NCBI GenBank assembly: GCA_021464245.1 | Contig: JADCRB010000089.1 | Coordinates: 1 to 64,000 of the forward strand | Length of the DNA: 64,000 nt | DNA from: Carallia brachiata | Taxonomy: Eukaryota > Streptophyta > Magnoliopsida > Malpighiales > Rhizophoraceae | Direction: 5' to 3' | In this document: positions 6,534-53,900 of the stretch, piece by piece | How the letters are laid out: each line of letters begins with the position of its first letter | Position numbering within the stretch: the stretch's first letter is position 1 | The notes under the pieces: model-generated | Seen by the model: only the letters and a program-made list of their open reading frames with translations | What the model was told of the DNA's origin: nothing | Databases searched by the model: none | Translations under genes and position numbers: made by a program

Positions 6534-7472
6534 TGTAAAGCGTAAATTTCGAGCCTAAACATAACCCGAAAATACAAAAATAAATTACAAATAAAAATTT
6601 AAAGTAAAAGAAAATTTACGTGGGGTCGATCTCCGTAATCCTCCGATTAGTGTTCCTTTTTTGACTCCGTCAAGGGCTGCACGAGCTTGATCTGACAGAA
6701 ATAATTCCACAGATTTTTTGAACTGGGTAGACTGAAACCGGATCTGATTTGGACGTTTTGACTACGGTTAAGAACCGCAGAGACCTGATCTGAGCCGATC
6801 TGGCTTAATTTCACCGAGGTCGAAGAGACTTGTTCTCGGATGAGCTGCCTGGATTTTGCTGAGGGCCGTATGAGGCTTAATCCCAGCCGGATTTAGTAAT
6901 TTGATATTTTTAACTCTATATTCTCAGAAATTCAGATCTAGAACGATCCAAGAATATAAATTTAAAAATAACTTTAGAAATGGAAACAGCAAATTTTTTG
7001 GGCTTTACCCCTGAAATATCTCTCAAAACGGAGTTAGGAGAGTATACTGCTAAGTAAAAGCACGTAAGAAAAGGAGAAATTTTCTTGAGAGATTTTCAAA
7101 ATTTTCTTTTTCTCAAATTCTCTGAATTTTTCTGTTTACAGATTTGCTGAATGTGTTTTGAACTGAGGGGCATGGGCCTATTTATAGGGTTTCCCCTCTC
7201 GTGTGAAAGCACGCGTGTGAAAGGCATAAGTCGACTTTTCCGTGTGAAAGGCATAAGTCGACTTTTCCGTGTGAAAGCACGCGTGAGAAAGGAATAAGTC
7301 GACTTTTCTGACTTTTCCGTGTGAAAGCATGCGTGAGAAAGGAATAAGTCGACTTTTCCGTGTGAAAGCACACATGCGAAAGGAATAAGTCGACTATTGA
7401 CTTTTTTTTTTTTTTTTTCTTTTTTTTTTTTCTTCTTCTTCTTTTTTTTTTTTTTTTTTTTTAATGTTTACA
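6534..7472 (-). repeat. 3' LTR of the Tat element
   Basis: Partner of the LTR at 16390-17334, with the same TGTAAA/TTTACA ends, the same tandem array (7200-7401) and the same TATA box (7177-7188). The open frames inside it (7096-7375) come only from the repeats. Confidence 0.93.
7200..7401 (-). repeat. Palindrome-rich tandem array in U3 of the 3' LTR
   Basis: The same five-unit array as in the other LTR, with unit boundaries and spacer lengths conserved. It is therefore an inherited part of the LTR and not a post-insertion expansion. The palindromes could give short hairpins, but no transcript feature is evident. Confidence 0.85.
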
Positions 7473-7486
7473 AATGCCCCCACTTC
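7473..7486 (-). promoter_or_regulatory. Polypurine tract next to the 3' LTR
   Basis: On the element strand GAAGTGGGGGCATT abuts the TG that opens the 3' LTR. Position and purine content fit the plus-strand priming site of a gypsy element. Confidence 0.65.
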
Positions 7487-7834
7487 AGGGGTCGGTAAGG
7501 AAGAACTTTGCAGACGTGATCCGCACCGAGTCTTGAAGTCCAGTTTGAAACTTGGAAACGTCCTGATGAACATTGAATCTTGGAGTCTTCTATCTTTGAC
7601 CATGCTTGCTGTTGTTGGATCACAATAGGAACCCGATACGATCTTGAGAAAGTTAGCACCCCAGCCAATATAAAAATTGATATTCTGGTTCCAGGTGCGT
7701 TCGAGCTTCCATAGCCCGCAAAGGATTTTTTATATCTCTTAAAGTTCCAGAGCTCTGGTGAGGATGATCCAGTAGGCAAAGAACTTCAACCTCCCCAAGA
7801 GAAAGGCTCAGGACCTTGGAACTTCAAGACCGGC

Positions 7835-8137
7835 TCACAGAGAGACTGACTGTAGTGATGATTTCCAAGTCTGCTTCGACGTAAGGAGAGTAGTTGGAAC
7901 TTCCCTGTACGTCGCTGCATCCAAAGAAAGATTAGGATAATTGCAGCTTCTCATCCCTCTGTGGTAGATGTGAACTAAGGAGAGTAGTTGGAACTCCATG
8001 ACACCGATGGCGTTGGAGATTGAGTTTCGAGGGCTTTTAGGGATCCCTCGAAGAAGACTACTCCTTCTTTTCTTAGCTCGTGCGCCTCCAACTTCTTGAT
8101 CGAAGAACTTCCTGAGACAAGTGTAGAGACTAGCCAT
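7835..8137 (-). CDS. Unrecognised 100-aa ORF between poly(A) tract and 3' LTR
   Basis: ATG at 8137 opens 100 codons starting MASLYTCLRKFFDQEV and containing a basic patch ARAKKRRSSLLRG. It lies in the same frame as the upstream homeobox ORF, so it is also the tail of that long frame. No domain, signal peptide or membrane segment is recognised. A 20-bp direct repeat (plus-strand 7882-7901 and 7976-7995) sits inside the coding part and encodes a related segment twice in two frames, which argues against strong coding constraint. A TATA-like motif precedes it. It may be a captured host gene piece or a chance frame. Confidence 0.3.
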   Translation of the reverse strand: MASLYTCLRKFFDQEVGGARAKKRRSSLLRGIPKSPRNSISNAIGVMEFQLLSLVHIYHRGMRSCNYPNLSLDAATYREVPTTLLTSKQTWKSSLQSVSL

Positions 8138-8190
8138 TTTCTTTTGAGAAAGAAGAGCTGAGGGGTGAATATTACAACTCGGGCACGCAG

Positions 8191-8203
8191 GATATATATA
8201 CAA
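8191..8203 (-). promoter_or_regulatory. TATA-like box before the second accessory ORF
   Basis: The minus strand reads TTGTATATATATC immediately after the poly(A) tract, about 55 bases before the ATG at 8137. It could drive a second short transcription unit. Evidence is motif and spacing only. Confidence 0.35.
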
Positions 8204-8210
8204 ATAATAA

Positions 8211-8214
<4 letters not shown>

Positions 8215-8253
<39 letters not shown>
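8215..8253 (-). repeat. Uninterrupted 39-base A tract on the element strand
   Basis: The plus strand has 39 T in a row. On the element strand it is a poly(A) tract about 190 bases after the EAR-frame stop, where an mRNA tail would be if the homeobox segment were captured from a processed transcript. Other A tracts in this element weaken that reading. Confidence 0.8.
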
Positions 8254-8254
<1 letters not shown>

Positions 8255-8334
8255 AAAAGTCAAAAAAGGTATGCAGAATCGGATAGGGCCATCCACGTCC
8301 CTTTCCTGCATAAGAGACAAAAGAGGCAGCGGCT

Positions 8335-8426
8335 GACGCGTGTCACGAAAGTCGTTACCGTGTGTGGCAGAAGTCGTTGCCGTGTGCTGCGGAAGTCGTT
8401 GCCGCGTGCTGCAGAAGTCGTTGCAC
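8335..8426 (-). repeat. Four-copy 22-bp tandem repeat
   Basis: On the plus strand units of the form CGTGTGCTGCGGAAGTCGTT repeat four times with a period near 22. They lie just beyond the EAR-frame stop of the homeobox ORF, so they would be 3' untranslated sequence. They share AAGTCG with the LTR array, which may be chance. Confidence 0.75.
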
Positions 8427-8444
8427 CTTATCTTGTCGGCCGTC

Positions 8445-9073
8445 CTAGCGGGGCCCGAGGTGCAACTCCAAGTCAAGCTCGACCTCGTCCGGTGGGCCGA
8501 TGATGTTGATGTCAACGTCGACGTCGCTTTCCGGCTGGTTGATGCTGCCGGGGAATATTCTGGAAAGAGAGGCAAAGTTTCGCCGGAATGACTCCTTTCT
8601 GCTAGAAAATGTCCTCCTAGACTTAAGTACCTAGAAGGGATGAACCCTTGGCTGACTCCGTAAGACCACCAGGACCAGCGTGCATGCTCCCATGGGCTAC
8701 GGCTTTGATGAACATACCGTGGAGAGACTATTGCGGTGGAAGAACTCGGACCTGCTTCATTTGACGGCGAAGTTGTACTGGTGGGATCTACCATCGGAAC
8801 AGCAGACTGTTCTTTGGAAAAATCAGCTCTCAGTGCTGGTTTCTTCCTGCTTCTTCTCCGATTCTGGAACCAATAAAACACATTTTTTCCTTCGATTGCC
8901 CCGAGTGGGCGCAATCGTGAGACAAGTTGGTAAATCTGAGATGCATTAGGCATAATACCTCCATTGTTGTGGAAGACTTCCTCTAGAATTTGCAGTTGCG
9001 CCATGGTTGGTTGCCACCTTGTGCGGGGTGACCTTTCTTCTCCCTTGTCTTGAGGTTCTGCAACTGGTTTCAT
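8445..9073 (-). CDS. WUSCHEL-clade WOX-like homeobox ORF inside the retrotransposon
   Basis: WOX proteins are plant homeodomain factors that keep stem cells undifferentiated, largely by repressing targets in the nucleus. The ATG at 9073 opens a frame with a homeodomain at residues 17-79: RTRWQPTMAQLQILEEVF, a loop with NN, then IEGKNVFYWFQNRRR, where the helix-3 core matches WUS-clade proteins. Ser/Thr/Pro-rich sequence follows. At residues 166-171 is TLPLFP, the WUS-box. One frame over (8477-8454) the strand encodes LDLELHLG, an EAR repression motif, closed by a stop at 8445-8447, so a one-base shift lies at about 8480-8560. Read in the ATG frame the ORF instead runs on to 7835 through a poly-Lys stretch. 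The homeodomain is uninterrupted by an intron. The ORF lies in the env position, sense to pol. Assignment to the family is firm; function in the host or element is unknown. Confidence 0.85.
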
Positions 9074-9160
9074 CTTTCTTGTGGTAGAGGAGCAAAGGTT
9101 TGGTGTGTGGTGAAGATCGATTGAGACTGATGCTGAGTTTCAGACTCAAACCCTCCGTCG

Positions 9161-9171
9161 CTTTTATATTT
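9161..9171 (-). promoter_or_regulatory. TATA-like box upstream of the WOX-like ORF
   Basis: The minus strand reads AAATATAAAAG, followed by about 85 bases with CA-rich leader character and then the ATG at 9073. The spacing is what a plant gene with its own promoter would show. Its use is inferred, not shown. Confidence 0.45.
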
Positions 9172-9224
9172 TTGGGCCGTTCACAGTTTATACTCATGCG
9201 GGCCAGGAGTTGGATTGGATTTTG

Positions 9225-9474
9225 AACCTGGTTTCTGGACTGTGTTTAGAACTTGGAATTTTTTGGGTTTTGGGCTTTGAATTGAATTTGGGTTGATTTG
9301 GATTTGGGTTTTTGGATCGAATGTTTGGGTTTGGACTTTTGGATTTGGATTGAGTGTTTGGGTTTTGGACTTAGTTTTTGTGTTTTCTGAATTGGGCTCA
9401 AGTGTTTGGGTTTGGATTTTCGCTTGGACTTTCAGATCGGGACTTCCGAACTTTTTTTTTTTTTTTTTTTTTTT

Positions 9475-9513
<39 letters not shown>

Positions 9514-9542
9514 ATTTTTTTTTTGATTTTTTTTTTTTTTTT

Positions 9543-9583
<41 letters not shown>

Positions 9584-9643
9584 TTTTTTTTTTTTTTTTT
9601 TCTTTTTTTTTTTTGATTTTTTTTTTTTTGATTTTTTTTTTTC
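9225..9643 (-). repeat. Low-complexity block after integrase
   Basis: Right after the integrase stop the element strand has some 190 bases of almost pure A broken by TC (plus-strand T at 9451-9643). About 210 bases of degenerate TCCAAACCCAAA-like repeats follow (plus-strand TTTGGGTTTGGA at 9225-9440). The Lys-rich and Phe-rich open frames here are artefacts. The block separates pol from the homeobox segment. Confidence 0.8.
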
Positions 9644-9651
9644 AAACATAT

Positions 9652-10770
9652 TTACACATAATATTGTTTCAGAAATTTACCATTGATTGGGCCGATTCGG
9701 ACGCCTTCTTGGTCTGACAGCATGTAAGCGTTGTGAGTGTAGGCCTCCTGCACTAAGTATGGCCCGTCCCATTTGGAAGTAAGCTTGTCACCAGGCCGAT
9801 GCTTCATGTTGATGGGCCGTCGCACTGCAAGAACAAGATCCCAACTTGAAAAGATCGAAGACGGACCCTGCGGTTGAACGTGTTGGTGAGCCGGGCTTGG
9901 TAGCACTCAAGTTGCTGTTGTGCTTCGAGCCTCCTTTCATCGAGAGCTTCTAACTCATCCAGACGTAGGCGAGCATTCTCCTCCTGTGTGAGTCCTTCCA
10001 GAACAGCCATGCGCAGGGATGGAATCTGTGTTTCCAACGGCAGTATTGCTTCGACACCGTAGACAAGTGAGTATGGCGTCGCCTGTGTTGGAGTCCGGTA
10101 AGTTGTACGATACGCCCATAATGCCTCCGGAATTCTGTCATGCCAATCTCTTTTGGATTTAGAGACTACCTTCGCAACAGGTTGCATAAGGTCTTGTTGA
10201 ATGCTTCAGCCAAGCCATTTGCTGGGGCATTGTACATGGATGACTTGTACTGCTTGAACTTGAATTTCTCGCAGAGCTTGTCATTAAGCTGTTGTAGAAC
10301 TGCTTACCATTATCAGTGATGATGAATCGAGGGACTCCATAGCGATAGATCAGCTGAGTCCGGATGAAATTGGCAACATGCTCCTTCTTTACCTCTCTAA
10401 GTGGAATGGCTTCAGCCCATTTTGAGAAGTAGTCGGTTGCTGCGAGGATGTACAGGTGACCTAGGGATGACTTTGGCAAGGGCCCCACTAAGTCGAGACC
10501 CCAAGCTTCAAAGGGCCAGGATGAGACAGTTGGATGCAGTGGCTCCGGTGGTTGATGTATGTAATTCGCATGAAATTGACAAGCTTGACAGGTTTTAGCA
10601 AACTCAATTGAATCACGTACCATGTTGGCCAGTAGTATCCCATCCTTCTGAGTTGGAAGTGCAACTTAGGCCCTGATTGATGTCCGCCACAAACACCAGA
10701 ATGTGCTTCAGTGAGAGCCTGTTTTGCCTCTTCATTGGCTAGGCAGCGAAGTAGAACTCCATCAAAAGAC
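9652..10770 (-). pseudogene. Integrase of the Tat element
   Basis: It inserts the DNA copy into the genome. The H2C2 zinc-binding part is seen as EAHSGVCGGHQSGPK and CQACQFHANYIHQPPEPLHP. The catalytic core has its first Asp in LAATDYFSKWAEAIPLREVK, the second in FIITDNGKQF, and the Glu in a further frame near 10210 (NGLAEAF). A C-terminal segment, KWDGPYLVQEAYTHNAYML, resembles the GPY/F module of gypsy integrases. The frame closes at 9652 after QYYV. Frame changes occur near 10625, 10270 and 9850. Confidence 0.88.
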
Positions 10771-10969
10771 CTTCGATACAGAGCATCCTTGAGATATATG
10801 AAGCGGGGAGCTCGTCGTTGAATTTCTGTCTTATGACGACGATCTTCGGGCAGCTTCCCGTGCTGTAGGTAGTCAATGATTGGTTGACGCCAGTCCTCGT
10901 CCTCCGCGAGACGTACAGATACAGCGTTGGCTGCTGTAGTTTCTTCATCATCCTTTTGGGCACTATCCA

Positions 10970-11910
10970 TTTCTGGCATACGGCAACAACTGTAGCCTGG
11001 ATTTCTGACTTTGCAAGAGAAGTGGCCAGGTTAGCCAACGCGTCTGCCTGAGTGTTTTCTCGTCGAGGCACATGCTCCAAGGTGATGCTTTCAAATTCAT
11101 CCATTAGCTGTCGAGCACGTTGATGGTAAGGCAAGGTCCTCTTTCTTCACATCATACAATCCTGTAAGTTGGTTGATGACGAGCTGGGAATCTCCATGGA
11201 CTTCTATAGTTGGAATCTTCATATCGACAGCCATTTGAAGACCAATGATCAAAGCCTGGTATTCAGCAACATTATTTGAACATAACTCACCGAGAATGAT
11301 AGCATATGGTAGTATTTGTCGTGAGGAGTGACAAACACTATACCGGCACCAGCACCATCACGCCTTGCTGCACCATCAAAGAACATCGTCCATGGTGGCA
11401 GTGTCTCAATGTAAAAGACCTCTTCATCTGGAAGATCATCTGTGAACTCCCAATCGACGGGAGGGTGATCTGCAAGGAAGTCTGCTAGAGCTTGTCCTTT
11501 GACTGCTTTTTGAGGCACATAGACAATGTCGTAGCTTTGTAGGATTACTGCCCACTTGGCAAGTCGTCCTGACAAGATTGGTCTAGATAAGATATATTTG
11601 ACAGGATCAGCTCTGGCAATGAGACGTACCGTGTGAGCCTGCATGTAGTGCCTCAGCTTGTCAATGGCAAAGAACAGTGCTAGACATGTCTTTTCAATGG
11701 GCGAATAACTCAGTTCCGGACCGTTTAGTGTTCTGCTCAAGTAGTACAGGGCAACTTCCTTTCCCTGCTCGTTTTCCTGTGCAAGCAAGGCTCCCAAAGA
11801 TCTTTCCTGCGCTGCAATGTAGAGAATCAACGACTTTCCTTGAATTGGAGCTCCCAGGACTGGTGGATTGGAAAGGTACTTCTTTATGTCTCAAAGGCTT
11901 TGCTGCAAGC
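10970..11910 (-). pseudogene. RNase H and second (archaeal-type) RNase H
   Basis: The first RNase H is seen as LGALLAQENEQGKEVALYYL, FAIDKLRHYMQAHTVRLIA and LSGRLAKWAVILQSYDIVY (11800-11520). After a spacer a second RNase H starts with WTMFFDGAARRDGAGAGIVF (about 11395-11336). It then shifts frame near 11300 and again near 11130, and ends in EHVPRRENTQADALANLA. Two RNase H domains in tandem upstream of the integrase are characteristic of the Tat clade. The second is thought to have been acquired and to have taken over from the first. Frame breaks prevent translation as one protein. Confidence 0.85.
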
Positions 11911-11971
11911 TTCGTCCCACTCGAAGTTGACATCCTTCTTCATCAACCGATGGAAAGGTTGACATCTCCAG

Positions 11972-13097
11972 CTAAATTGGAGATGAAACGGCGAATGTAG
12001 CCAGCTTTCCTTGTAGACTTCGCAGCTCGTGCAGGTTTTTAGGTTCAGGCATCTTTTGAATTGCCTCAACCTTTGACTGATCAACTTCGATTCCACGATG
12101 GCGCACCACGAACCCAAGAAACTTTCCTGATGTGACACCGAATGCGCACTTGAGAGGGTTCATTTTGAGCTGATGCCTCCGAAGTCTTTCGAACACTGTC
12201 TTGAGATCCTCGAGGTGGTCTTTGCGCTTCTTAGTCTTTACAACTAAGTCATCAACATAACATTCTACAATCTTGTGCAGCATGTCATCAAAAATTTTTT
12301 GCATAGCACGTTGATAAGTGGCGCCAGCATTTTTAATCCAAACGGCATAACTTTATAGCAGTATATACCTTTTGGGGTGCGGAATGCTGTCAACTCCTCG
12401 TCTTCTGGTGCCATTCTGATTTGGTTATAGCCTGAAGAACCATCCATGAAAGACAATGCTTCGTGACCCGTTGTTGCATCGACTGTGATCTCCGTTATGG
12501 GCAACGGAAAGTCATCTTTCGGGCAGGCCTTGTTAAGATCTCGAAAATCAACACATACCCTCAACTGTCCATTCTTCTTTCTTACCGGGACAATGTTGGC
12601 AATCCACGTTGGGTAGGTGACCTCTCGGATGAAGCCGGCATTGATCAGCTTGTTCACCTCCTCCTCGATTTGTGGAATGAGTTCCGGGCGGAACCGTCGT
12701 TGTGGCTGCTTGACAGAACGGACACCTTCTTTACTGCTAGACGATGCACCGCAATTTTTGGGTCAAGTCCAGGCATTTCTTTGTAACTCCATGCGAACAC
12801 GTCCCTGTATTGACTTAATACCTGAACATATTCTTGCTCTTCTTCTACAGTAAGTAAAGCACTTACAAATGTAGGTCGAGGATCTTCCGGAGAGCCAAGA
12901 TTGACCTCCTTGAGTTCATCAACAGTTGCTTGGCCACCGTCTTCAAGTTCCGGGGGAGCCTCCTTCACTTCACCATCTGATGAGTCGGAATCAGCCTCCT
13001 CGCTAATTGTGACATGAAATGCAGAACCTCTGACTTCACCTTCTTTGTTTGACTGGATAAGCCTGTCTGTTTGGTGTGGTGGTGATGGCACGTGCAT
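11972..13097 (-). pseudogene. Reverse transcriptase of the Tat element
   Basis: It copies the element RNA into DNA. An acidic linker (13097-12700) leads through FAWSYKEMPGLDPKIAVHRL into the RT. After a one-base shift near 12720 comes LINAGFIREVTYPTWIANIV, VCVDFRDLNKACPKDDFPLP and the metal-binding LSFMDGSSGYNQI. A second break near 12300 precedes the catalytic YVDD at 12248-12259 and the thumb (LKMNPLKCAFGVTSGKFLGF, 12150-12100). All signature motifs are present, and the damage consists of frame changes rather than replaced residues. Confidence 0.9.
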
Positions 13098-13592
13098 CAG
13101 CTGCTTGGCTTCGGCTCTTTAGCGTGATCCGCACAGGTGACTTCTCCTGATAGCCTAAGCCAGGTCGGGACTGTGATGTTTGAGAAGCGGCGCCATGTGT
13201 GGACGGCAGCGTACCCATTGTGCTCGGGTTTGAAAAGTCATAGCCCGCCTTTGCCAAAAGCTTGTATGCATTAGGATCAAATCCTTCATGTGTTCTTCTT
13301 TCTGGAAGTGAGCCGCCTTCGACTGCCCCCGTGTGTGGTTTGACGAAGCCTTTTAATGGTTTTGAAGATAAAACCGGCTCAATCTTTGGTATCGGCAGAG
13401 TGTAAGTCTCCTTCAGGTTGTGCAGCTCCTTTGTTTGGGTTGGCTATGACCTTGCTCCTGTTTAAGATCAATACAATAAGAGAAAGGGGGTTGACCTTCT
13501 GAGCGTCGTGACTAGGCACATAGCGTAGGACTGGAGTGGAGCTTGAAGATGCAACATCCTTCGAACGAAGTTCAGCAGGCTGTGGCAGCTTT

Positions 13593-14408
13593 TCATTTGT
13601 TGGAGCCTGGGGTTGGGCATTGGCAGGTTCTTCGACAGCTTTTCCCTTTTTGTGGATGCCCCCAGTCCAAGTAGCTTTTGATGGAATGATCTCCGGATTG
13701 TCTGTGTCGGTAGAAGACTGCATCCGCCAAATGTGATTCAGCATCATCGAACGGCTTTAAGTCAGCATTGACCTTTTGAACGCCACCATTGTAGTACTTG
13801 AAGCACTGATGCAGGCTTGAGAGCACAACTCCATTTCCATGAATCCATGGTCGTCCTAGCAACATCTTATATGTGGTACGTGCATCAATCACGTGAAATA
13901 GAGTGCTAGAAGTGAGATTACCGATAGTTAGCTCCAAGCGAATCATCCCAATTGCTTTCTGTCCTCCTTGATTAAAGCCATGAATCATCAAGCGGCTGTC
14001 TGATAATTCATCAATGCCGATGCCGAGCTCCTTTATGGTGGATTTTGGGATAATATTGACTGCTGAGCATCGTCGATCAGAATACGTCGGACCTTCTGCT
14101 CTCTCACATAGCCTGATACATACAGCGGCCGATTGTGGGGTTTGGACCCCAGCAGGAGATCCTCATCTGAAAATGAGATAGCAGAGTAACATCCGACGTG
14201 ATTTTGGTCCGCCTGTTGCTCCGCTGAGTTAGACTCATTTGATGGCTCTGAGCTGAGGTCTGGAGAGTATTGCTGACTTGATTTTGCCACACTTCTGTTG
14301 ATTGCAAAGCTATAAACAGCTGAGGGTTAGCGAGAAGGGTTTGGAGAGCTTCATATACCTTCTCCGTTGTCGACTTTTTGTTGTCGAGCGGCTCCTCCTT
14401 ACGGTGTG
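13593..14408 (-). pseudogene. Retropepsin-type protease region of pol, broken at the active site
   Basis: The protease cleaves the element polyprotein. The flap and substrate strands are visible: RPLYVSGYVREQKVRRILID (about 14136-14077), LMIHGFNQGGQKAIGMIRLE, and FHVIDARTTYKMLLGRPWIH ending near 13850. The last is the conserved GRPWIH end of plant gypsy proteases. At about 14066-14078 the frame is lost right after the two Asp residues, one base short, so the catalytic Asp-Gly-Ser is not read. The following part (13747-13379) is a Pro/Ala-rich linker. Confidence 0.8.
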
Positions 14409-16104
14409 TCACCTCTTCTGATGGTTTTGAAGTGATGGTGGTTTGGTTCCGAGGTTACCTTCCTGGTCCAGAATGATTTTATTCTGGCTTTTGAGCTTCA
14501 TGATTAGCTCCTTCAGGACGAAACATTTCGGTTGGATGACTTACTATCCGGTGATATTTGCAGAATCTCGGATCGCTGACTCGATCCTTTTCATTCGGCC
14601 GCTTGCACTCTGGGAGTTCGATCAGCTTCGCCTCCAGGAGTTGGTCAAGATGTCGGGGACGTCTGAGTCGGGGAATGGATACTGCTTCTGCTCCAACTCT
14701 CGCAATGTCACCTTCCGCCTTTCCTGTTGTTTTGGCTGAGTTATTTGGGTCGGAGGATTTACCTTGCTTTGGCGCCCACTTTTACTGGTGCGGCTTCAAC
14801 AGTCATCACTTCTTTCCTTTTCCGGAGCTGTTGGGTTTCTTAATCTCCCTTCTGCCCCCTTGCTGGTCCAACTGGATGGGAACCGTGCCTCCGGAAGTCT
14901 GGATGCTTATCTCCATATCATGTGCGCGGGTCGCCAATTCTTCGAAAGTTCGGGGTTTGACACCCTGCAGGATGTATAACAGCTCCCAATGCATTCCCTG
15001 GATGCACATCTCCACGGCAGAAGTCTCCGTCAGGCGATCTTTGCAGTCCAAGCTGAGGGCACGCCATCTGTTGATGTATTCGACAACGGGCTCTCCTTTT
15101 CTTTGTTTGGTGCTGGTAAGCTCCATCATACTTACCGTCCTTCGAGTGCTGAAAAATCTGTTGAGGAACTCTCGTTGTAGCTGTTCCCAACTGTCGATCG
15201 ATTCTGGTTCAAGATTTATGAACCAGGTGAAAGCGGTCTCCCTGAGTGAACGAACAAACTGCTTCACCAAGAGATCTCCGTAAGTCCCTGCGTTGTTGCA
15301 GGTTTCAACGAAGTGGGCGATGTGCTGTTTGGGATCGCCTCGTCCGTCGAATTGTTGAAATTTGGGCGGTTGGTAGCCCAAGGGCATGTTGAGACTTTCG
15401 ATCCGTCTGGTGTACGGTTTGACGTACATCTGTGATCCTTGGAAGGATGTAGCTTGTTGCAGTCGGATCGTATTGGCTATCATTTCCTGCAATTGTTGAA
15501 CAGATAGCGAAGCTATAGAATTTGAGGGTGGCAGCTGTGTAGAACTACCTGGTCGCTTTTCTGCAGGGAAGACGTCGGCTGGTGTGGCTTCTGGAGTGAA
15601 ACCGGGTGGATATGGTTGCTCCTCGCGGATTCGGGATCAACTTGGATCGGGCTTTTTCCTTTGAGAGCTGCGATCTGTTGATCTTTTTCCTCCACGACTC
15701 TGATCAGCTGTAAAATTTTGTTTTCCAATTCTGAAATTCTTTTCTGTGCTGGTTGTGTTGGTCATCATGACGGCAACAGATGAGGCTCCGGGAAAGACTG
15801 GGGGAGAAAACTCTTCTGATTCTTCTGTGTGAGTCGGATTTTGTTGAGCAGGCTTCGTCGTGTTGCCCCCGATTTCGATCGGGGTGGGTGATCGACTCCT
15901 CCATGCGGCAAGAGAGTCAGGGGAGAGATCCTGTTGTGCAAGCTGTGGACTCTTCATTTCGACATTTTGTCGGGTTTGGACGGCAAGAAATTGTGTCCGT
16001 CCCCGGGTTTCTGGACCTGCGTACCCAGGTAGGGTAGTTGATGCAGGCAATGGAGCCGTTGCCTTCTTTTTTGTGGCAGCAGTTGTACTCCTTTTCGGTG
16101 CCAT
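14409..16104 (-). pseudogene. Gag of the Tat element, frameshifted
   Basis: Gag forms the particle that packages the element RNA. From Met at 16104 an Ala/Thr/Pro-rich N-terminus runs to about 15640. After a frame change a short coiled segment follows (VVEEKDQQIAALKGK), and after another the retrotransposon gag domain (15492-14806), with FDGRGDPKQHIAHF, TWFINLEPESIDSWEQL and VEYINRWRALSLDCK. Further down, near 14610-14535, is a Cys/His pattern DPRFCKYHRIVSHPTE typical of Tat Gag, but a frame change falls just before its last Cys. A stop in the gag frame is at 14409-14411, just before pol. At least three single-base shifts break the reading frame. Confidence 0.85.
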
Positions 16105-16125
16105 TTGATGTGCTGAACACCTGTA

Positions 16126-16165
<40 letters not shown>

Positions 16166-16365
16166 TTTTTTTTTTTACCTTTTTTTTTACTTTTTTACTT
16201 TTTACTTTTTTACTTTTTTACTTTTTACTTTTTACTTTTTACTTTTTTTTTTTTTTTACTTTTTTTTTGTCTTTTTTTTTTGTCTTTTTTTTTTTTTCTC
16301 TCTCGGCTCCCCTTTTACCTCTTTTTTTTTTTTTTTTTAAGAAACAAGAGATGGGAGGTGAAGAT
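16105..16365 (-). repeat. A-rich low-complexity leader
   Basis: Between the PBS and the first gag Met (16104) the element strand is a run of poly(A) blocks broken by GTAAA-like interruptions (plus-strand T tracts at 16128-16338). There is no coding content. The length of such tracts is uncertain in assemblies. Confidence 0.7.
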
Positions 16366-16383
16366 GTCCCACCGAGCGTGCCA
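16366..16383 (-). promoter_or_regulatory. Primer binding site
   Basis: A few bases inside the 5' LTR the minus strand reads TGGCACGCTCGGTGGGAC. It starts with the TGG that pairs with the CCA end of a tRNA primer and lies at the expected place. I do not assign the tRNA. Confidence 0.6.
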
Positions 16384-17044
16384 AAAATTTGTAAAGCGTA
16401 AATTTCGAGCCTAAAACAATTAAACTCGAAAATACAAAAATAAATTACAAATAAAATTTAAAATAAAAGAAAATTTACGTGGGGTCGATCTCCGTAATCC
16501 TCCGATTAGTGTTCCTTTTTTGACTCCGTCAAGGGCTGCACGAGCTTGATCTTGACAGAAATAAATTCCACAGATTTTTCTTGAACTAGGTAGACTGAAA
16601 CCGGATCTGATTTGGACGTTTTGACTACGGTTAAGAACCGTAGAGACCAGATCTGAGCCGATCTGACTTAATTTCACCGAGAGTCGAAGAGACTTGTTCT
16701 CGGATGAGCTGCCTGGATTTTGCTGAGGGCCGTATGAGGCTTAATCCCAGCCGGATTTGTAGTAATTTGATATTTTTAACTCTATATTCTCAGAAATTCA
16801 GATCTAGAACGATCCAAGAATATAAATTTAAAAATAACTTTAGAAATGGAAACAGCAAATTTTTTTGGGCCTTACCCCTGAAATATCTCTCAAAACGGAG
16901 TTAGGAGGTATACTGCTAAGTAAAAGCACGTAAGAAAAGGAGAAATTTTCTTGAGAGATTTTCAAAATTTTCTTTTTCTCTCAAATTCTCTGAATTTTTC
17001 TGTTTACAGATTTGCTGAATGTGTTTTGAACTGAGGGGCATGGG

Positions 17045-17056
17045 CCTATTTATAGG
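17045..17056 (-). promoter_or_regulatory. TATA box of the 5' LTR
   Basis: The minus strand reads CCTATAAATAGG, a textbook plant TATA box, immediately downstream of the U3 array. Transcription would start some 25-35 bases further down, near 17010-17020, which would define the U3/R border. The identical motif is at 7177-7188 in the 3' LTR. Confidence 0.75.
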
Positions 17057-17068
17057 GTTTCCCCTCTC

Positions 17069-17269
17069 GTGTGAAAGCACGCGTGTGAAAGGCATAAGTC
17101 GACTTTTCCGTGTGAAAGGCATAAGTCGACTTTTCCGTGTGAAAGCACGCGTGAGAAAGGAATAAGTCGACTTTTCTGACTTTTCCGTGTGAAAGCATGC
17201 GTGAGAAAGGAATAAGTCGACTTTTCCGTGTGAAAGCACACATGCGAAAGGAATAAGTCGACTATTGAC
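17069..17269 (-). repeat. Palindrome-rich tandem array in U3 of the 5' LTR
   Basis: Five imperfect units, each containing a GTGTGAAAG block and an ATAAGTCGACTT block. Four of the five keep the 10-bp palindrome AAGTCGACTT. Between them lie CACGCGTG or diverged forms of that 8-bp palindrome. The array sits just upstream of the TATA box on the element strand, the place of U3 enhancers. A TTGACT core (W-box type) lies at its far end. Confidence 0.85.
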
Positions 17270-17334
17270 TTTTTTTTTTTTTCTTTTTTTTTTTTCTTCT
17301 TCTTCTTTTTTTTTTTTTTTTTTTAATGTTTACA

Positions 17335-24527: not shown

Positions 24528-27500
24528 TTAGTAGCGATCGAAAGAAGAAGGGTGCCCTCCCCTACCAGGACGATCATAAGGACCTGGCCTATTCCTGTAG
24601 CTCCTGTCATTACGTGCTGCAGGACCTCCATTCCCATACCGATCAAGACCCCCTCGTGGACCATCTCTATCATAGCCTCTGTCTTTGCCATAACCATTAT
24701 GTGCATAGCGATCTCCATAACGATCTGAACTGCCATACCTATCACCAGCAAAACGATCTCCGCCAGGAGGGTACCTGCAAAGGCAAGTATTACTTGATTG
24801 TCAAATCTACTAGATGGTATAATTTCTCCAATTGCCAATGATGCGATTGACCAATCAGACTACATGATGGTTCCACAGAGGCACATAGAAATAGAAAGGG
24901 GGAGAACAAAAGAAAAGCCAAAAACAGGCAATTATTTAACAATTTCTAAGACAGTTTGACATGATAGCTATCTGAGTAATTAACTTATTGTCAAATTCCA
25001 GGTACCTGTCATCGGCATAGCGATCACGGCTCCCATACTTGTCTTTGCTGTCCAGGCGATCTCTATCACCATAGCGTCCTCCATCATAGCGATCGTCAAT
25101 ATATCGATCACGACCTCCTCCAGAGCGGTCCCCGCGGTCAACAACACCTCCAAACCTGGAACGTGAAGAGAAGGAACCAGAACCTCCACCTCGGCCTCCA
25201 GCTGAAGGGCAGTCTCGTGCCCAATGGCCCAAACGCCCGCACTTGAAGCACTCATCTTGTCCAACAGGTCTATCACCTCCATAGCTGCCCCTGCCACCTG
25301 ATGAGTAGGCTCCCCTGTAGCTGTTGTCTAAATCATCACCTCCCATTCTTGGTTGGGCCTTGTTCACAGAGATAGTACGATCACCAAAGTCCCTCCCGTG
25401 CATCTCCCTGATAGCATCATCCATGGCTCGACGATCTGCAAAGGTAATGAACCCAAATCCACGTGGACGGAGGGTATCTCTCTCCAGCATAACCTGAAGA
25501 AATGCCACAACAGAAAAGCAAAGTGACAAAAACCTATCTGAAGGCAACAAATGTTAAGCTCAACCACAAATGAAGGGAACAAATGTTGGCAGAGCCTAAA
25601 ATGCTACAAAAGTGAAGCTATAGCATGGTTATAGCTGAACAAATATGCATGTCATGAAATGATGAGTTTGAAAGGTAAATACACATAAAATACATGAACC
25701 ATAAGCAATTAGACCAACAGTTGGCAGAAATCATTTACGAATAAAACAGCAACATACAAATCGTACAAATTCTTGCAAAAAAAGAATACATATCAGTTCC
25801 CTACAGACTAACCTAATTTATTGTTGAGGCCATACACGCTTCTGTCCATAAAAATCATGCAACAGGTATGATCAGTTCCTTACGGAAATTAACTAATAAA
25901 GCATCTGTAGTGGTTGACAAACCTAACAGGCTAATAAGGATCTGGCCATTTCACAATTTTGATTGTAAATTTCAAATGCCATTCAAATTGGTCAGCTTTA
26001 TCAGAAGTAGCAGCAGTACTGATATCTTGCAAAACCACGAATACATATCAAGCACATGAGCAATTTAATCACAACATCAGTAATGCAAGAGTGATTGATT
26101 TTAGAATTTACTTTCACAGCCAATTTATTAACTTGCTATCAAAAGAGAAATAATGGAGTAGGAACAGGAGTCTCACAAAGTAAACTCTTCAGAATAGCTG
26201 TTTACCCTTTTTTTATTAAAAAAAAAGTAATAAGGAAGAGTATGAGAAGTAAAAAGCCGGCTACTTACTTTCTCTCTGATAAACAAAGCATCCTTAAAGA
26301 AACTAGAAGAATCAGCAAATTGTATCTGACATCTAATACAGTAGGTTTGACATCTATTCTGGCTTAAAATCTGAGATGACATTTCCACAATAACTTGTTG
26401 CATACCCCCCATTTTGGTGGATCAATATTCTCCTGATATAAACTTGAACTGATAGTCACTGCTACCATTCTCCTCAAACCTAGGTCACAAAATCCCAACA
26501 GCATTTCAATACAAAATATGGTTGACACATCAGATGGATCTCGATCCGGGTTTAACAACCAACCATCCACGATTCTAGCATATACCAGTCAATTCTTCAA
26601 TATCACCATGGATATCAGATAGAGAATATTTCCTCCCCTCCTCATAACTATTAAGTAGCTCATCTCAGCAGGCTGGCAAACAGCTTAGTCATCCATATTG
26701 TCAAGAAACAACTAATTTGTCCCACCTTCGCAAGCCACACAAAAGCTGAAGAGCTTCTTCTAACCAATAAAATTTACTCACATGATCAGATATAAATTTG
26801 AATATCCACCACTTGTACTCAGATTGATTATTTATATTGTAATTAAGACCAGTCTAAAATGATCAGCACATCATTATCCCAGATGCCATGAAATCATAGT
26901 TTTCTGTCTGAAAGTTACGAGTGGACACAGGAAAGAGCACACAAAAGCAGAGAGCAAACACTTTGAGGGCATAACGACAGCCACGGACACAACTAGAACA
27001 TATTTCCCCATGTTCCTAATTCTTCACGTTATTTTCCAAAGAGATGGGTAAGCCACAAAGCCCAGACGCTTCCATATTGTTGAGACAGCCCTGAGTCTGA
27101 CCTCTGCCATGACAGAACGCAATTCCAGCACATCGACAATGATGGCTGGGAATTTCAACAGACAAGAGTGCATGCAAAGAACCATCAAAAACATTAAGAT
27201 CCGTGAAATGAGAACCCTAAATATGCCAAATTCGGGATCTGAAAGATGTTATAGCAGCATTTACAAAGCATATCATGCTCTGAAAACAATGAATTTGGTC
27301 CAGACTGCCCAACTAATAAAACCAATGATAAGATCTAGTCGCAACAAATAAGCCATGAGCTAGAAGCAGTTCAGGCACAAGAGTATGTAGAAGGATGGAA
27401 AGCAGGATCCTGGGAAACCACGAATTCAGTGGCGGGCGGACACTTCAATCAAATCCGGCATCCTCATATGAGTTAAAACATTGAGTACAAAAATTCTGAG

Positions 27501-35080: not shown

Positions 35081-35336
35081 TGTTGAAGTTAATTCAGATT
35101 CGTTATAAATTAGGATTTAGCGTTTTAGTAGAATTATAATTAGTTTGTCATGTTTTCATTATTGGAGTCGGAATATAAATTGTTAGTCTAGTATATAAGA
35201 AATTGAGAGTCACAATTTATTGTGTGACTGATGAGCATATTCATTGAGAGGTTATAATTAGTGTGTGTTTCTCATTATTGTTGTGTGACCTTATTCAAAT
35301 AATAAATTAGTAGTGTTATGTTAATTAAAACTAACA
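35081..35336 (+). repeat. 5' LTR of the TRIM/LARD-like element
   Basis: Begins TGTTGAAGTTAATTCAG and ends AACTAACA. Roughly 96% identical to 37183-37438, differing by about a dozen substitutions and no length change. Confidence 0.9.
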
Positions 35337-35337
35337 G

Positions 35338-35350
35338 TGGTATCAGAGCC
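35338..35350 (+). promoter_or_regulatory. Primer binding site, initiator Met tRNA
   Basis: TGGTATCAGAGCC, the standard plant LTR-element primer site, starts two bases after the LTR. Confidence 0.9.
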
Positions 35351-37172
35351 AGGTTAATCGAGAAGTCACCGTCACCGAGTTTTAGATCCAATTAGTTGAA
35401 AATAAATGTTGATTACGAAATTTTGTTCAGTTTGTTTGAGTTAAATGCTAGTAAAATTGTTGTTGTCAGATATCGGAAGAGATATCTGATCTAAAACAAA
35501 GAAAAAGGAGCCGTCGGAGCACCGTCGGAGCCGCAGCCGGCCGTCCACGCGCCGCCACCAGAAGCCGTTCAGTCACCGGTCACCACCATCTAAAGCGGAG
35601 ATCGCCGATCTCCCCGATTCCGGCACCCACGCAACGAAAATTTTGCCAGAAACACGCAGATCTTGATAACACCGAAAGATTCCAGTCGCCGTTTCCACCC
35701 CGATTTCGGCCTCTCCCGTCGCCACCACGCATCAGAAGCCTCGGACTTCGCCTCCCCATCCACCGATCTTCTTTCCCCCACGTCCGACGCACTGATTTGT
35801 CGTCGGAAAGTGATCGGACCAAGCCATCAGTTCTCTTTCGCTTCTGTCCCGTCGAATTAAGCAGCCCAGTAGCCGTTTTTCACGATCCCTACCACCGTTT
35901 GCCTCAAGAGTTGTCTAGAGGTCATCACCGGCCGGAGTCAGTTGGCCACCCGTCGCCGGTATAGAACGGTGGGGTTAGATTGATCGAGGAAGAAAAGAAA
36001 AAAAGAAAAAAAAAAAGGAAGTAGAGGCAGATCTGAGAAAATAAAGAAAGTGGAGTCAGATTGAAAATAAAAAAAAGGGGCAGATCGGAGAAAAAGAAAA
36101 AAATAAGGGGTCAGAATAAAATATTCAAAGGAGAGTAACAAAGAATTATTGGAAAAACAAAGATTTGATAGAATTTAAGGATTTGACAGACTTGAAAAAT
36201 ACAAAAAGTTGGAAGAAATTTGATGATCTAATAATTATGGGTATAAGAAGGAAGAAAACGAAAAGGAAGAAAAAGAGAAGGAAGAAAAAGAAAAAGAAGA
36301 AAAAGAAAGGTGGAGAGACTAATTTTAGGAATAACTTTGAAGAAGTCACGAAGAAAAAGAAGATTTGAAGTTGCAGATAATTCAGAAGTAAAGAAGAGAA
36401 TAGTTATGTGAAGTTAGAAGCGAAGAGTTTTAATTAAAGTAATAAAAATACATCAAAACAATCATGGAGGTCAAGATAATAATGAAGCAGTTAAGAAACG
36501 ATGAAGCAACAAAAAGGAGAAGGTAGAGTTGAGTTGAAGCGAAGGAAAATTTGAATTTAAAGATGATTTCAGGAGTTGAATTGAGATTTGAAATTATCAG
36601 TAATCGATAGCTAGTGAATGTTCAGATAAAAGTATTTGTTAGAGTTAATCAGAAAACTCGTGTGAGGACTTGTGGAGCTCAAAGAGCTCGGAGTTAGGGA
36701 CATGTTATGTTGAGAGTTAAGATGCTCAGTTCAGTTGAGAGTTAATGATAGCTCGTTTCAGTTTTTCCATGTATGATTGGAAAACAAACTAAGAAGTTGA
36801 GTAAAAGTACTATACAGTCTCACGGCTGCGTGTCGTGGAGAATGAAGTCTCGGACCTTATGGAAGGTCATTTGTCACAAATTCTTTCAAGGATTGAAATG
36901 TTAAGTAAGAATTGACGAAATAAAATTAACGGCCATGTTGAAATTGATGAGAAGAATTTAGAAGAATAATTGTCAAGAAGACTCATGATAATCATGTTAG
37001 TGAAGTTTTGAAAGTTTGGTTGAAGATTGTGAATCAGTTTGAAGAAGAGTTAAGGTTCCAGTTGAAATTATGAAATTGTTGATTTGATGTAGATTTCGAT
37101 GATGAAATTGAAGTTTGAAGATTTTGTTAAGCGAAGTAGATGTTGTGAATGACTGCAGGACCGAATCAGAAT

Positions 37173-37182
37173 TAAGGGAGGA
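37173..37182 (+). promoter_or_regulatory. Polypurine tract before the 3' LTR
   Basis: TAAGGGAGGA directly precedes the TG that opens the 3' LTR. Confidence 0.8.
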
Positions 37183-37438
37183 TGTTGAAGTTAATTCAGA
37201 TTCGTTATAAATTAGGATTTAGCGTTTTAGTAGAATTATAATTAGTTTGTCATGTTTTCATTGTTGGAGTCAGAATATAAGTTGTTAGTCTAGTATATAA
37301 GGAATTGAGAGTCACAATTTATTGTGTGACTGGTGAGCATATTCATTGAGAAGTTATAATTAGTGTGTGTTTCTCATTATTGTTGTGTGACTTTATTCAA
37401 TTAATAAATTAATATTGTTATATTAATTAAAACTAACA
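37183..37438 (+). repeat. 3' LTR of the TRIM/LARD-like element
   Basis: Same length and ends as the 5' copy. The next bases GGTGG match the GGTGA before the 5' LTR at four of five positions. Confidence 0.9.
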
Positions 37439-37640
37439 GGTGGGAGTGGCTGGCCGACAGCGGTAGCTAACCACCTCCGCCGACTATGAATCCGATAGAA
37501 AATGGAAGAAAGACTTCAAAGAAATTTGAGAGAGAGAGTTATAGAAAAAAAGGGTCAGGGTAGCTGTAATTTCAAGATCGAGATCATTGACTCAAGGCCA
37601 ATGAGTCCTCGCTTTCTTCCCTTTTAAAAGTAAAGAATTA
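37439..37640. other. DNA interrupted by the LTR element, right part
   Basis: Continuation of the patch at 34520-35080. It includes a GA repeat near 37530 and no recognisable coding sequence. Confidence 0.4.
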
Positions 37641-37899
37641 GAATGATGAAATAATGATAGGGAGAAATTAGGAATGTATAAAAAATTATTATAAAATAGT
37701 TATATATGGTGAAAAATTTTGTTTTAGTAATTTGATTTTTTTTTAAATCAAGATTTAAAGTAATATTAAGCATATTTAGAATAATACAAAATACATTTTA
37801 GTGTTTAATTTTTTTTAAAAAATAAATTTCTAATTGTTATTAAGAGACAAACTCATTCTTATGAGTATTTTATAGTTATTTTTTATATTCTTTTAATAA

Positions 37900-37904
37900 T
37901 ACTC

Positions 37905-37937
<33 letters not shown>

Positions 37938-37938
37938 G
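37900..37938. repeat. (TAA)n microsatellite
   Basis: About a dozen AAT/TAA units in a row, directly before a foldback-element relative. Confidence 0.85.
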
Positions 37939-37942
37939 TAAT

Positions 37943-38490
37943 AAGGGGTTAAATGTGATTTAATTGTTTTACATTTTACTTCCTCGTGATTTCAATCTAG
38001 GTACTAAATTCCTTTATACTTTTTAATTTTAAAAATTAATCCTCTTAATAGCAATTTGTTAAACCTATCAATAGAAATTTTTTACAATTGCGTTGTTTTA
38101 TGAACATAGAAATTTAATCATATCTTTAGATAGAATTTAACTATAAATACTGCATCGAACACTTGTATATCAACATCTGCAATATATTGAAAATCACAAA
38201 GATTGTGAAGAAAATAATATAAAAAACAGCTCAATTATATACTAAAATTCAAATTCAAAAATCTATGACATGTTTTTATAATTTTGGTATAAAAAAAATT
38301 AATAATTCTAAAACAATGTAATTTTAGTTAATTTTTATTAATAAATTTAATATAATATTGACTAAAGAAGTAAATTATAAAAATTAAAAACTATAAAAGA
38401 ATTTAATACTTAAATTAAAATTACAGAAAATAAAATATTTTTTTTGACAATAAAAATAAAATATAAATTAGCCAAACTACAGTAATTAAA
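37943..38490. mobile_element. Diverged relative of the 23272-24010 foldback element
   Basis: The left end AAGGGGTTAAATGTGATTTA and the following TTACATTTTACTTCCTCGTG, AATTAATCCTCTTAATAGCA match the left arm at 23281-23410. An inverted, more decayed arm is seen at 38330-38490. No duplicated arm here. Confidence 0.5.
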
Positions 38491-50919: not shown

Positions 50920-53900
50920 ATGGAGATACAGAAACATGTGTGTCTGTTTTATGTCTGATGTTCGTTGCATGCCGCGCTGGTCTTTCCCAGGCGGAACTCC
51001 GCCTGCCCAGGTCCAACTTCCCGTCGCTGCAGGCGGAGGAGATGATAAGGCACCTCAATCTTTTTCCGCCGCAGGATGTTAACGTCGTCGAACACGACGA
51101 CCACCTCGACCGCGCCCATCCATCCAAGAGGATCGTCGAGAAGAGGTTTGTGTTCCCTAACGTCATCGGCGAGGAGAAGAAGGATCCAGGGGTTTCTGTC
51201 GAGGATTTGGGCCACCACGCTGGTTATTACAAGATTGCCCACTCCCATGCCGCCAGGTCCGGTCCCTCTGTCTCCAATTCCCACCCTTCAATCAAAATTT
51301 TTATTTTTTATTTTTTTTGTTTCTCTCTCTCTTTGTGTCTATGTTGTTTCGTGAGCACTGCCATTGTTTTAAATGTTTAGGCTTTGTTTTTATGTTTAGG
51401 GTTTGATTACGAAAAATTAAACATTTGTAATAGTGTTTCGGTTGGCCGCCCGGATTTGATTAGAATATTCATAATTAGATTCAAGGGTTTTTAGTGTTGC
51501 TAAGAGACCTTGGAATGGCCACAGGGCTGTAATCTTTTTTGGGGTCTTAAGGCTTGAACATTATTATGTGATGTTGTCAACTTGAATGGTGCTATGATTT
51601 GAGGTTTCGTTCAAGATTGCGCCTTTTGTTCCGTCTCCCTGGTGATTCTATTGCAGACCCTTACATTTTACCAGCTATTGTAACCCTCATCAAATTCTGT
51701 TACTTTTGCAAACCTAGTTTTCTCAACGAAGTTTTGGGGATTGTTTGTGTAAGTACTTGATATTCCAATTGTTTCAGGGACGGCTAATTTCAAAGGCTTT
51801 AGTTAGTTGCTGCCACCATTACAGATAATTCTTATTAGTTACTTGCAACCTAAAGTGTTTGCTTATGTGGGTCAGTTTTATCCTCTTTAATTCCGTGCTG
51901 ACCTATCCTAGTTGTTGCTTGTAGGATGTTTTACTTCTTCTTTGAGTCCCGCAACAGTAAGGAGGATCCTGTCGTCATTTGGTTGACAGGCGGACCAGGC
52001 TGCAGCAGCGAGTTGGCTCTCTTCTATGAAAATGGTCCGTTTACTATTGCACCCAACATGTCTCTTGCGTGGAATGAGTACGGTTGGGACAAGGTATTCA
52101 TTTTGCTTTGTCCTTTTCTTGTCTGTATTTTGTAATTAGGTTTTCTTAAGTTGGCATCTGTTTGTTGTATCGCAGTCACGTAGTCATGGGTTTCGTTCAT
52201 TGTACATAGATATGGTGATAGTGTAGGATCCTTGGCCTGTTGCATTATATGTCTAAATTTTACCTTGTATTAAGTGGAAGTAACCAACTTTTTTTTTTTT
52301 TTTTTTTTTTTTTTTGAGAATGTGGAAGTAACCAACTTATATCAGCCTGTCTTTGTTTTAATTTGAGTCTTCATATATGGCCGCCATTCTCCTCTAGGAT
52401 ATTCATGTATAATTCATTTTGTCAGACCTATTTTGCTTTCAGATGAACTTGGTCTCTATGCTTTTGATTTCAAAATACACAGCATTCGTTGTGGTCTTGA
52501 ATCATATTTACATGAAATACTTGGCGATGTATCGTGTACACCTTATTTAACCTTAATCGATCTGTCAGTGCAATGATTGGACCATAATAATGCTGTTCAG
52601 CTGAAAAGTGAAAGAACAGAGAAGAAAATATGTGCTATTGAATCTCTTTTGCAATTTTTTGGCTCACCTTGCATTTGACTTCTATTTGTCTCTGCTCACT
52701 AGCTTCAGATTTCTTTTAGGGTCCCTTATGACACCTACTGATTAGTGAAAAGAGAGATTCTAATTGCAAGAAATGTTTGCAGGTTTCAAATCTTCTTTAT
52801 GTTGACCAACCTATTGGGACTGGGTTCAGTTACAGTTCTGATGCACGTGACATTCGTCATAATGAAGATGGAGTTAGTAATGACCTGTATGACTTTTTAC
52901 AGGTTGGTTATCCATTGACTTTTCCATACTAGAGAGCTATACTAATGTACAATTCTGTACTTGTTGTGGTGTTCATATTTGGGGAAAAGCCGATGGAGAA
53001 TCAGGGATGTCTATTTTGTGAATTTAAGTATGTACCCATGCTGATAGAATTAAGTGGGTTCTTTCTCTGACCTCAGGCCTTCTTTGAGGAGCATCCTGAA
53101 TTTGCAAATAATGATTTCTACATAACAGGAGAATCATATGCTGGCCACTATATTCCTGCCTTTGCTGCTCGTGTCCACAAAGGGAATAAGGCTAAAGAAG
53201 GAATTCACATAAACCTCAAGGTATGTATCCGAGTTCACATATTCTCATCTTTGATGGGCCTATTTTTCTAATATTAATCGTTACTGAAATTGTTGAGCAG
53301 GGATTTGCCATTGGCAATGGGCTTACTGATCCTGCAATCCAATACAAAGCTTACACAGATTATGCATTGGACATGGGAATAATAAAAAGACTGAGTATGA
53401 TCGTATCAAAAAGGTGGTTCCAGTTTGTGAAATGGCAATAAAGCTTTGTGGTAATACTATATCTTAAGTTTCCCTGGATATTCTGTGAGCAATTGATACG
53501 TGTCCTATTATTTCATTTCTTCAAGCCTTATTATCTGGTGGAAGTTTTATTTTATATTAGCTTCTCAGACACTCTTTTTTTTTCCCCCCATTTCAGGCAC
53601 CGATGGTACTATATCTTGCATGGCTTCCTATTTCGTTTGCAATACCATATTCAGTAGCATTATGGCACATGCTGGTAACATAAATGTAAGGCATCATAAA
53701 TCTTCTCTTGAATACGAGGCAGGAAAACTGGGGTTTCATTGTTATTTTTGTTGTTATTTCACCACATAATATTTTCTGTGAAAAACAGGCTACTTTTTTC
53801 TTTTGTGATCAATCTGAGGAAGTCAGTTAAAACAGCATAAACCAATCCACTTAATATGATATTGTACCAAGATGGAAAGATGATCGACTGCCAAAAAGAT

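Follow-up and report, generated by a model that had tools for sequence, protein, structure and literature searches.

The window that we analysed, a stretch of 64,000 nucleotides of the Carallia brachiata genome (contig JADCRB010000089.1, positions 1 to 64,000; host assembly of 337.5 Mb in 164 contigs), carries on its minus strand an LTR retrotransposon of approximately 10.8 kb (6534..17334), within which lies an open reading frame (ORF) of the WUSCHEL type. The element is bounded by a 5' LTR of 945 bp (16390..17334) and a 3' LTR of 939 bp (6534..7472), and is flanked by a possible 5-bp target duplication (AATCT/AATAT) that matches at four of five positions. The two LTRs show 15 mismatches over 940 aligned columns in a MAFFT alignment (K2P 0.016; BLAST gives 7 mismatches and 17 gap openings), which at rates of 1.3e-8 to 4e-9 corresponds to approximately 0.6 to 2 million years. 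A probable primer binding site (TGGCACGCTCGGTGGGAC, with TGG at its start; 16366..16383) stands after the 5' LTR, and a polypurine tract (PPT; GAAGTGGGGGCATT, 7473..7486) precedes the 3' LTR. Pfam matches on the same strand comprise a gag piece (Retrotrans_gag, 14806..15492, E 3.1e-15), a reverse transcriptase (RT) in two overlapping frames (11972..12657), its RNase H (PF17917, 11249..11830, E 3.3e-23), a second RNase H ahead of the integrase (RVT_3, PF13456, 10739..11134, E 2.4e-06) and an integrase core (rve, 10159..10623, E 1.1e-08); no protease was identified among the Pfam domains of the element. Breaks at many places interrupt the gag-pol frames in this copy. The order gag, RT, RNase H, integrase, together with LTRs, primer binding site and PPT, is that of Ty3/gypsy elements, and a dual RNase H is described as a Tat feature in the part of the literature accessible to us (PMC9289625). 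Domain order and the two RNase H domains thus support a Tat-type assignment, in agreement with an earlier reading of the locus made from its letters (the sequence-only reading), which had called a Tat retrotransposon.

The remainder of the window holds a piece of a serine carboxypeptidase gene (Peptidase_S10; 53856-54437), a piece of an RRM and zinc-knuckle RNA-binding protein that is probably a host gene (24936-25550, minus strand), and an open single-exon U11/U12-31K host gene (57989-58747, minus strand) with best matches in Manihot (79% identity) and Hevea (78%), which make Malpighiales the most likely order of the host. An element-like unit of about 2.4 kb with no obvious ORF (35083-37440) has direct repeats of about 262 bp that are 95% alike, the first of which is followed by TGGTATCAGAGCC, which we take to be an initiator-Met primer site; a strong G-over-C skew is seen in 36001-38000.

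The WUSCHEL-type ORF region (8445..9073, minus strand) is sense to gag-pol. Its ATG, at 9073, lies approximately 0.58 kb beyond the last integrase-frame stop (9652) and ahead of the PPT and 3' LTR. It encodes a WOX homeodomain (8840..9025) that was recognized by Pfam (Homeodomain, E 8.4e-11), by a sequence search of the PDB, which at E<=0.01 returned WUSCHEL (6ry3, E 9.7e-18) and STENOFOLIA (6wig, E 2.4e-15) and nothing besides, and by an AlphaFold model. The model has three helices, with block pLDDT values of 92-94 over residues 21-70 and 74 over residues 71-80 (mean 61), and its seven top PDB structure matches are WUS-homeodomain chains. The homeodomain segment IEGKNVFYWFQN shares one frame with the WUS-box TLPLFP (8561..8578, minus strand); an EAR-like motif, ELDLELHL(G) (8457..8480, minus strand), is found in another frame in the window copy, where this C-terminal part stops at 8445-8447, and is in frame in other copies. 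The recognition helix of the window copy deviates from the form common among copies. Coordinates, Pfam and PDB results therefore agree with the sequence-only reading of a sense homeobox ORF between the integrase stop and the PPT/3' LTR with TLPLFP in frame, and its assignment to the WOX/WUS family is borne out by a homeodomain of WOX type (Pfam, PDB and model) accompanied by a WUS-box.

Within the WOX family, the element rows and both host WUS genes (L031, L032) of our codon alignment have an insertion of one residue where helix 1 ends. The insertion is absent from seven other host loci that we take, by resemblance, to be WOX1-, 2-, 3-, 4- and 5-like; the host comparison took in WUS1/2 and these seven loci, leaving out intermediate and ancient WOX genes. 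An origin from WOX1-WOX5 type genes is accordingly disfavoured. In the structure of WUS, as given in the accessible part of its report, a single-residue insertion at this place forms a pi-bulge, and bases are read by R38, Q89, N90 and R94 (PMC7203112). All four residues are kept in the six element rows aligned. A WUS-box of the form TLxLFP is present in the element (some copies of the second homeodomain type described below have ILPLFP), as is the C-terminal EAR-like motif, so that likeness to WUSCHEL (host L031 and L032; Arabidopsis 6ry3 and 6ryd) extends to the helix-1 insertion, the base readers, the WUS-box and the EAR-like motif. Unlike WUSCHEL, the element gene is intron-less, shorter and multi-copy within a retrotransposon, and its homeodomain is only 47-50% identical to that of host WUS. 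In a tree, the element copies form one clade (100/100) on a very long branch whose attachment point within WOX was not placed; the best reading, resting on helix-1 insertion, WUS-box and EAR, is that the gene belongs to WUS proper among modern-clade WOX genes. Homeodomain and WUS-box lie on separate exons in host WUS, and in the element version no intron separates the two, as would be expected of capture through RNA. The homeodomains of the two host WUS genes differ from each other with a dS of 0.18, pointing to a fairly recent host WUS duplication.

The gene is carried throughout the element family. Allowing up to three mismatches, a homeobox 29-mer found 832 sites in the 337.5-Mb host genome and its reversed control none, and an RT 29-mer of the window element found 730 sites genome-wide (control 0). 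These sites, with the Pfam match (E 8.4e-11) and the PDB matches, rule out a chance motif. Copies were also chosen by RT, which avoids picking them by their homeobox: the sample comprised 85 of 150 RT places, those on contigs C1-C48. A listed homeobox lies 2.4-4.6 kb downstream on the same strand at 46 of the 85. From the other 39, which have no listed homeobox, 22 were fetched, and every one, including L126, which is cut short, contains a homeobox match. The match is therefore present downstream in 68/68 resolved RT places (68 of 85 being resolved), which answers in the affirmative the question, raised by the sequence-only reading, of whether other family members carry the ORF; together with the 832 sites, it rules out a one-off capture. 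The gene keeps its place and strand: among 50 copies with flanks, the integrase is upstream in 47 and the DNA that precedes the LTR is downstream in 49. In a protein search, the ORF matched 408 proteins, and the best 120 of these are plant homeobox proteins, mostly WUSCHEL where named, with identities of no more than 56% and no close element relative among those 120. Scans of IMG/VR with the ORF and with the RT piece gave no relatives, and a weak search run without a positive control found a homeodomain inside long polyproteins in none of 1939 candidates at E<=1.

Many copies encode the whole motif set and many others are broken. A coding stretch of 621 nt, encoding 207 residues, is identical at 20 loci, and in the 207-residue open copies (translation inspected for seven loci) homeodomain, WUS-box and EAR are joined in one frame; among 20 RT-chosen copies that could be scored, 6 likewise have all three in frame. 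A protein-level genome search with the ORF, in which 150 matches were scored out of 2780 first-look candidates, found stops inside the match in 32 of the 150. By alignment, which may have created some of the breaks, at least one frame-breaking event or stop occurs in 76 of 110 copies examined. Not every copy can therefore need the gene, which counts against a retained accessory gene and favours the view that a captured gene fragment hitchhikes without function in a successful element; transduction of genes into LTR elements is a known process, according to the accessible part of a published account (PMC7264820). The presence of the gene in 68/68 resolved RT copies, the occurrence of open frames in both main homeodomain types and the retention of homeodomain, WUS-box and EAR speak against such a passenger. 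The breaks in the 110 homeobox copies are mostly one-nt deletions, even where substitutions are few; this excess may stem either from decay that is prone to deletions or from errors left uncorrected where repeats were assembled.

Substitution patterns bear on the same question. Between element and host WUS, the homeodomain shows pN of 0.33-0.36 and pS of 0.79-0.89, so that synonymous sites are saturated and nonsynonymous change is limited. When the element ORF was evolved neutrally to 52% homeodomain identity in a simulation of substitutions without indels, it acquired a mean of 5.5 stops, and 0.5% of 400 runs had none. We took dN/dS from RT-chosen copies because picking copies by protein similarity biases against nonsynonymous change. 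For the homeodomain, the 22 RT-chosen copies gave 0.12-0.37 in 21 cases and 0 in one (L133) against the reference copy; these 22, being the RT places without a listed homeobox, are enriched for diverged types, are mostly of one type and are not independent. The pooled homeodomain value is 0.27, and two wrong frames gave 0.59 and 1.91. Pooled values are 0.59 for the linker, 0.44 for the whole ORF and 0.93 for the C-terminal part, the last not below one wrong-frame control (0.91); all three include L126, which ends after the homeodomain and whose later values are meaningless. Under a stricter count, which took fixed differences and controlled for mutation spectrum, one subfamily gave no significant result, either for codons 1-171 (N30/S17, P 0.14) or for the homeodomain (N15/S8, P 0.24), and another gave a weakly significant one (N4/S7, P 0.019), with none of the differences in its homeodomain. 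The question posed by the sequence-only reading, whether dN/dS is below 1, is thus answered in the affirmative for the homeodomain of RT-chosen copies (approximately 0.27), with no significant backing from the fixed differences of the first subfamily. We conclude that purifying selection acts on the homeodomain, and that the evidence is weaker elsewhere in the ORF. That non-significant count would suit a functionless passenger, and the saturated synonymous change against host WUS, the homeodomain dN/dS and the conservation of a TATA box (below) do not; we consider such a passenger improbable.

There are two main homeodomain types: type 1, that of the window copy, has NVFYWFQNRRSRKK in open copies, and type 2 has NVYFWFQNRRHRET. 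Divergence between the types peaks at 18-21% over ORF bases 90-270, from the end of helix 1 to the recognition helix, and is only 0-4% downstream of the ORF in L130, L132 and L128; L124, L141 and L142 have local peaks of 6-14% between 630 and 900. Upstream of the ORF, too, the types differ, by 2% to more than 30% depending on the interval compared. A third type (L129) is divergent throughout, and one copy (L136) mixes type-1 and type-2 parts inside the homeodomain. Since the types differ in the homeodomain and have near-identical downstream DNA, the DNA-reading part has been exchanged between backbones, which suggests a diversification of the protein's DNA targets by swapping of homeodomain types. 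Homeodomain dS between the types is 0.50, which exceeds the value of 0.18 for the host WUS pair, and the gene is therefore much older than the present copies.

Upstream of the gene, a putative TATA box (TATAAAAG; 9161..9168, minus strand) lies 95 nt ahead of the ATG in the window copy. Of 72 copies, 66 have it at -92 to -98 from the ATG, 68 have an intact ATG and all 72 have A at -3. The accessory gene of Grande elements is transcribed from its own promoter, according to the title of a study cited in PMC11963269 and PMC7264820. The Carallia family thus has a gene that predates its present copies, encodes homeodomain, WUS-box and EAR, and is preceded by its own conserved TATA box. The LTR has a TATA box of its own (CTATAAATAG; 7178-7187, minus strand), adjoined by a U3 tandem array of 27-50-bp units that stands just before it (7214..7395, minus strand). 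The array contains six TGAAAG and six CACACG 6-mers, and U3 also has one TTAATG (0.06 expected, P 0.056). Such an array beside a TATA box could serve as the main target of the protein, which would then damp or time transcription from the element's own LTR, host effects being incidental; a role as element regulators has been proposed for the accessory proteins of Retand in the accessible text of PMC11963269. Enrichment of TGAA in U3 was not found, however (6 occurrences against 5.05 expected from shuffles), and tandem duplication alone would yield the excess of 6-mers. We regard self-regulation as the main role as unlikely, while granting it appreciable weight.

Accessory genes of this position are known from related elements. 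The TRP28 ORFs of Retand/Tat elements resemble the Carallia gene in lying between pol and the 3' LTR in most copies and in encoding a predicted DNA-binding protein with a proposed regulatory role (accessible parts of PMC11963269 and PMC7264820). The Retand/Tat ORFs with known domains are antisense, whereas the Carallia ORF runs in the sense direction and combines the motifs of a host transcription factor; no sense ORF between pol and the 3' LTR encodes a known domain in the accessible part of the Retand survey (PMC11963269). The pol-3' LTR region measures 2.2 kb in the window element against the 2.9-6.6 kb given there for Retand, and its three plus-strand ORFs of at least 80 aa, considered as TRP28-like antisense candidates, have no Pfam match at E<=0.01; we therefore do not assign the element to Retand. 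Gypsy elements of Phalaenopsis with an AlkB-type 2-ODD ORF are likewise of the Tat family, with a host-type accessory gene kept by their lineage; their cargo is an RNA demethylase, and that of the Carallia element is of a developmental transcription factor type (accessible text of PMC9289625). According to the same source, a B3 DNA-binding domain is carried by elements of Aegilops, which gives a plant transcription-factor domain as cargo a precedent. Its screen of angiosperm LTR elements names B3, G-patch, KOW, ArgoL2, AlkB and others, and the words homeobox and homeodomain do not occur in its main text (PMC9289625). Two surveys of WOX genes that cite Gypsy concern, in their accessible parts, elements near WOX genes and not WOX genes inside elements (PMC5501002, PMC6482515). 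Among the papers listed by our search of titles and the openings of abstracts, which had preprints and most subscription papers outside its range, none describes a plant LTR element that contains a WOX or homeobox gene. Accessory ORFs as such are known from Tat-type elements, and we found no earlier report of WUSCHEL-type cargo. A more distant likeness is to retroviral oncogenes, which are processed host genes that regulate cell proliferation or fate and travel in a retroelement. Their usual setting is a defective provirus, with the oncogene in place of viral genes; unlike them, the Carallia gene is family-wide and retained.

Plants set aside no early germ line, and the activity of an element must therefore fall in cells from which gametes later arise. 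The account that we favour is that the lineage of this element long ago captured a host WUSCHEL gene as a processed, intron-less copy and has since retained it between pol and the 3' LTR as an accessory gene, which would be transcribed from its own promoter. Because the base readers are kept, the simplest reading of the product is a WUS-like repressor: the four residues would direct a nuclear protein to TGAA-type sites, where its WUS-box and EAR would recruit TOPLESS. Recruitment of TPL through WUS-box plus EAR has been demonstrated experimentally for HEADLESS of Medicago, according to the accessible part of the report (PMC6305195). By repressing WUS-type targets, the protein may hold cells near the state of shoot stem cells or germ-line progenitors, so that new insertions are inherited; alternatively, it may repress genes that limit the element, with the same outcome. 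In Arabidopsis vegetative shoot stem cells, 54 TE families are raised, 26 of them LTR retrotransposons, and at the embryonic and 35-day stages the stem cells show less TE expression rather than more (accessible text of PMC7560203). An element gene acting in the vegetative phase could therefore favour inheritance. The lower expression at the two other stages counts against the account, as do the lack of TGAA enrichment in U3, the weak constraint on the linker, the C-terminal dN/dS that is no lower than a wrong-frame control, and a tree that does not place the element clade within WOX.

The protein might instead antagonise host WUS, occupying WUS sites or TOPLESS rather than mimicking WUS, as its limited homeodomain identity to host WUS and its shorter length of 207 residues would allow; mere occupancy of sites would not need the two repression motifs, both of which are kept, and we think such a competitor very improbable. 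That a captured WUS gene has been kept as an accessory gene encoding a WUS-like, TOPLESS-recruiting repressor that aids inheritance of the element is a conclusion that we hold with somewhat more belief than doubt. A bolder version, which we put forward tentatively and consider doubtful, is that a recently active lineage encodes a complete WUSCHEL-type repressor that holds cells in, or returns them to, a stem-cell or germ-line-progenitor state and changes its DNA-reading helix by homeodomain swaps, as a stable, family-wide plant counterpart of a retroviral oncogene.

With an element that carries a master regulator of the shoot stem-cell niche, the manipulation of cell fate by a retrotransposon for its own transmission becomes directly testable. 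The finding would also imply that an element has multiplied a regulator of host development to hundreds of copies. Such element-borne WUS copies would matter for the annotation of the WOX family and for regeneration work that uses WUS as a tool gene.
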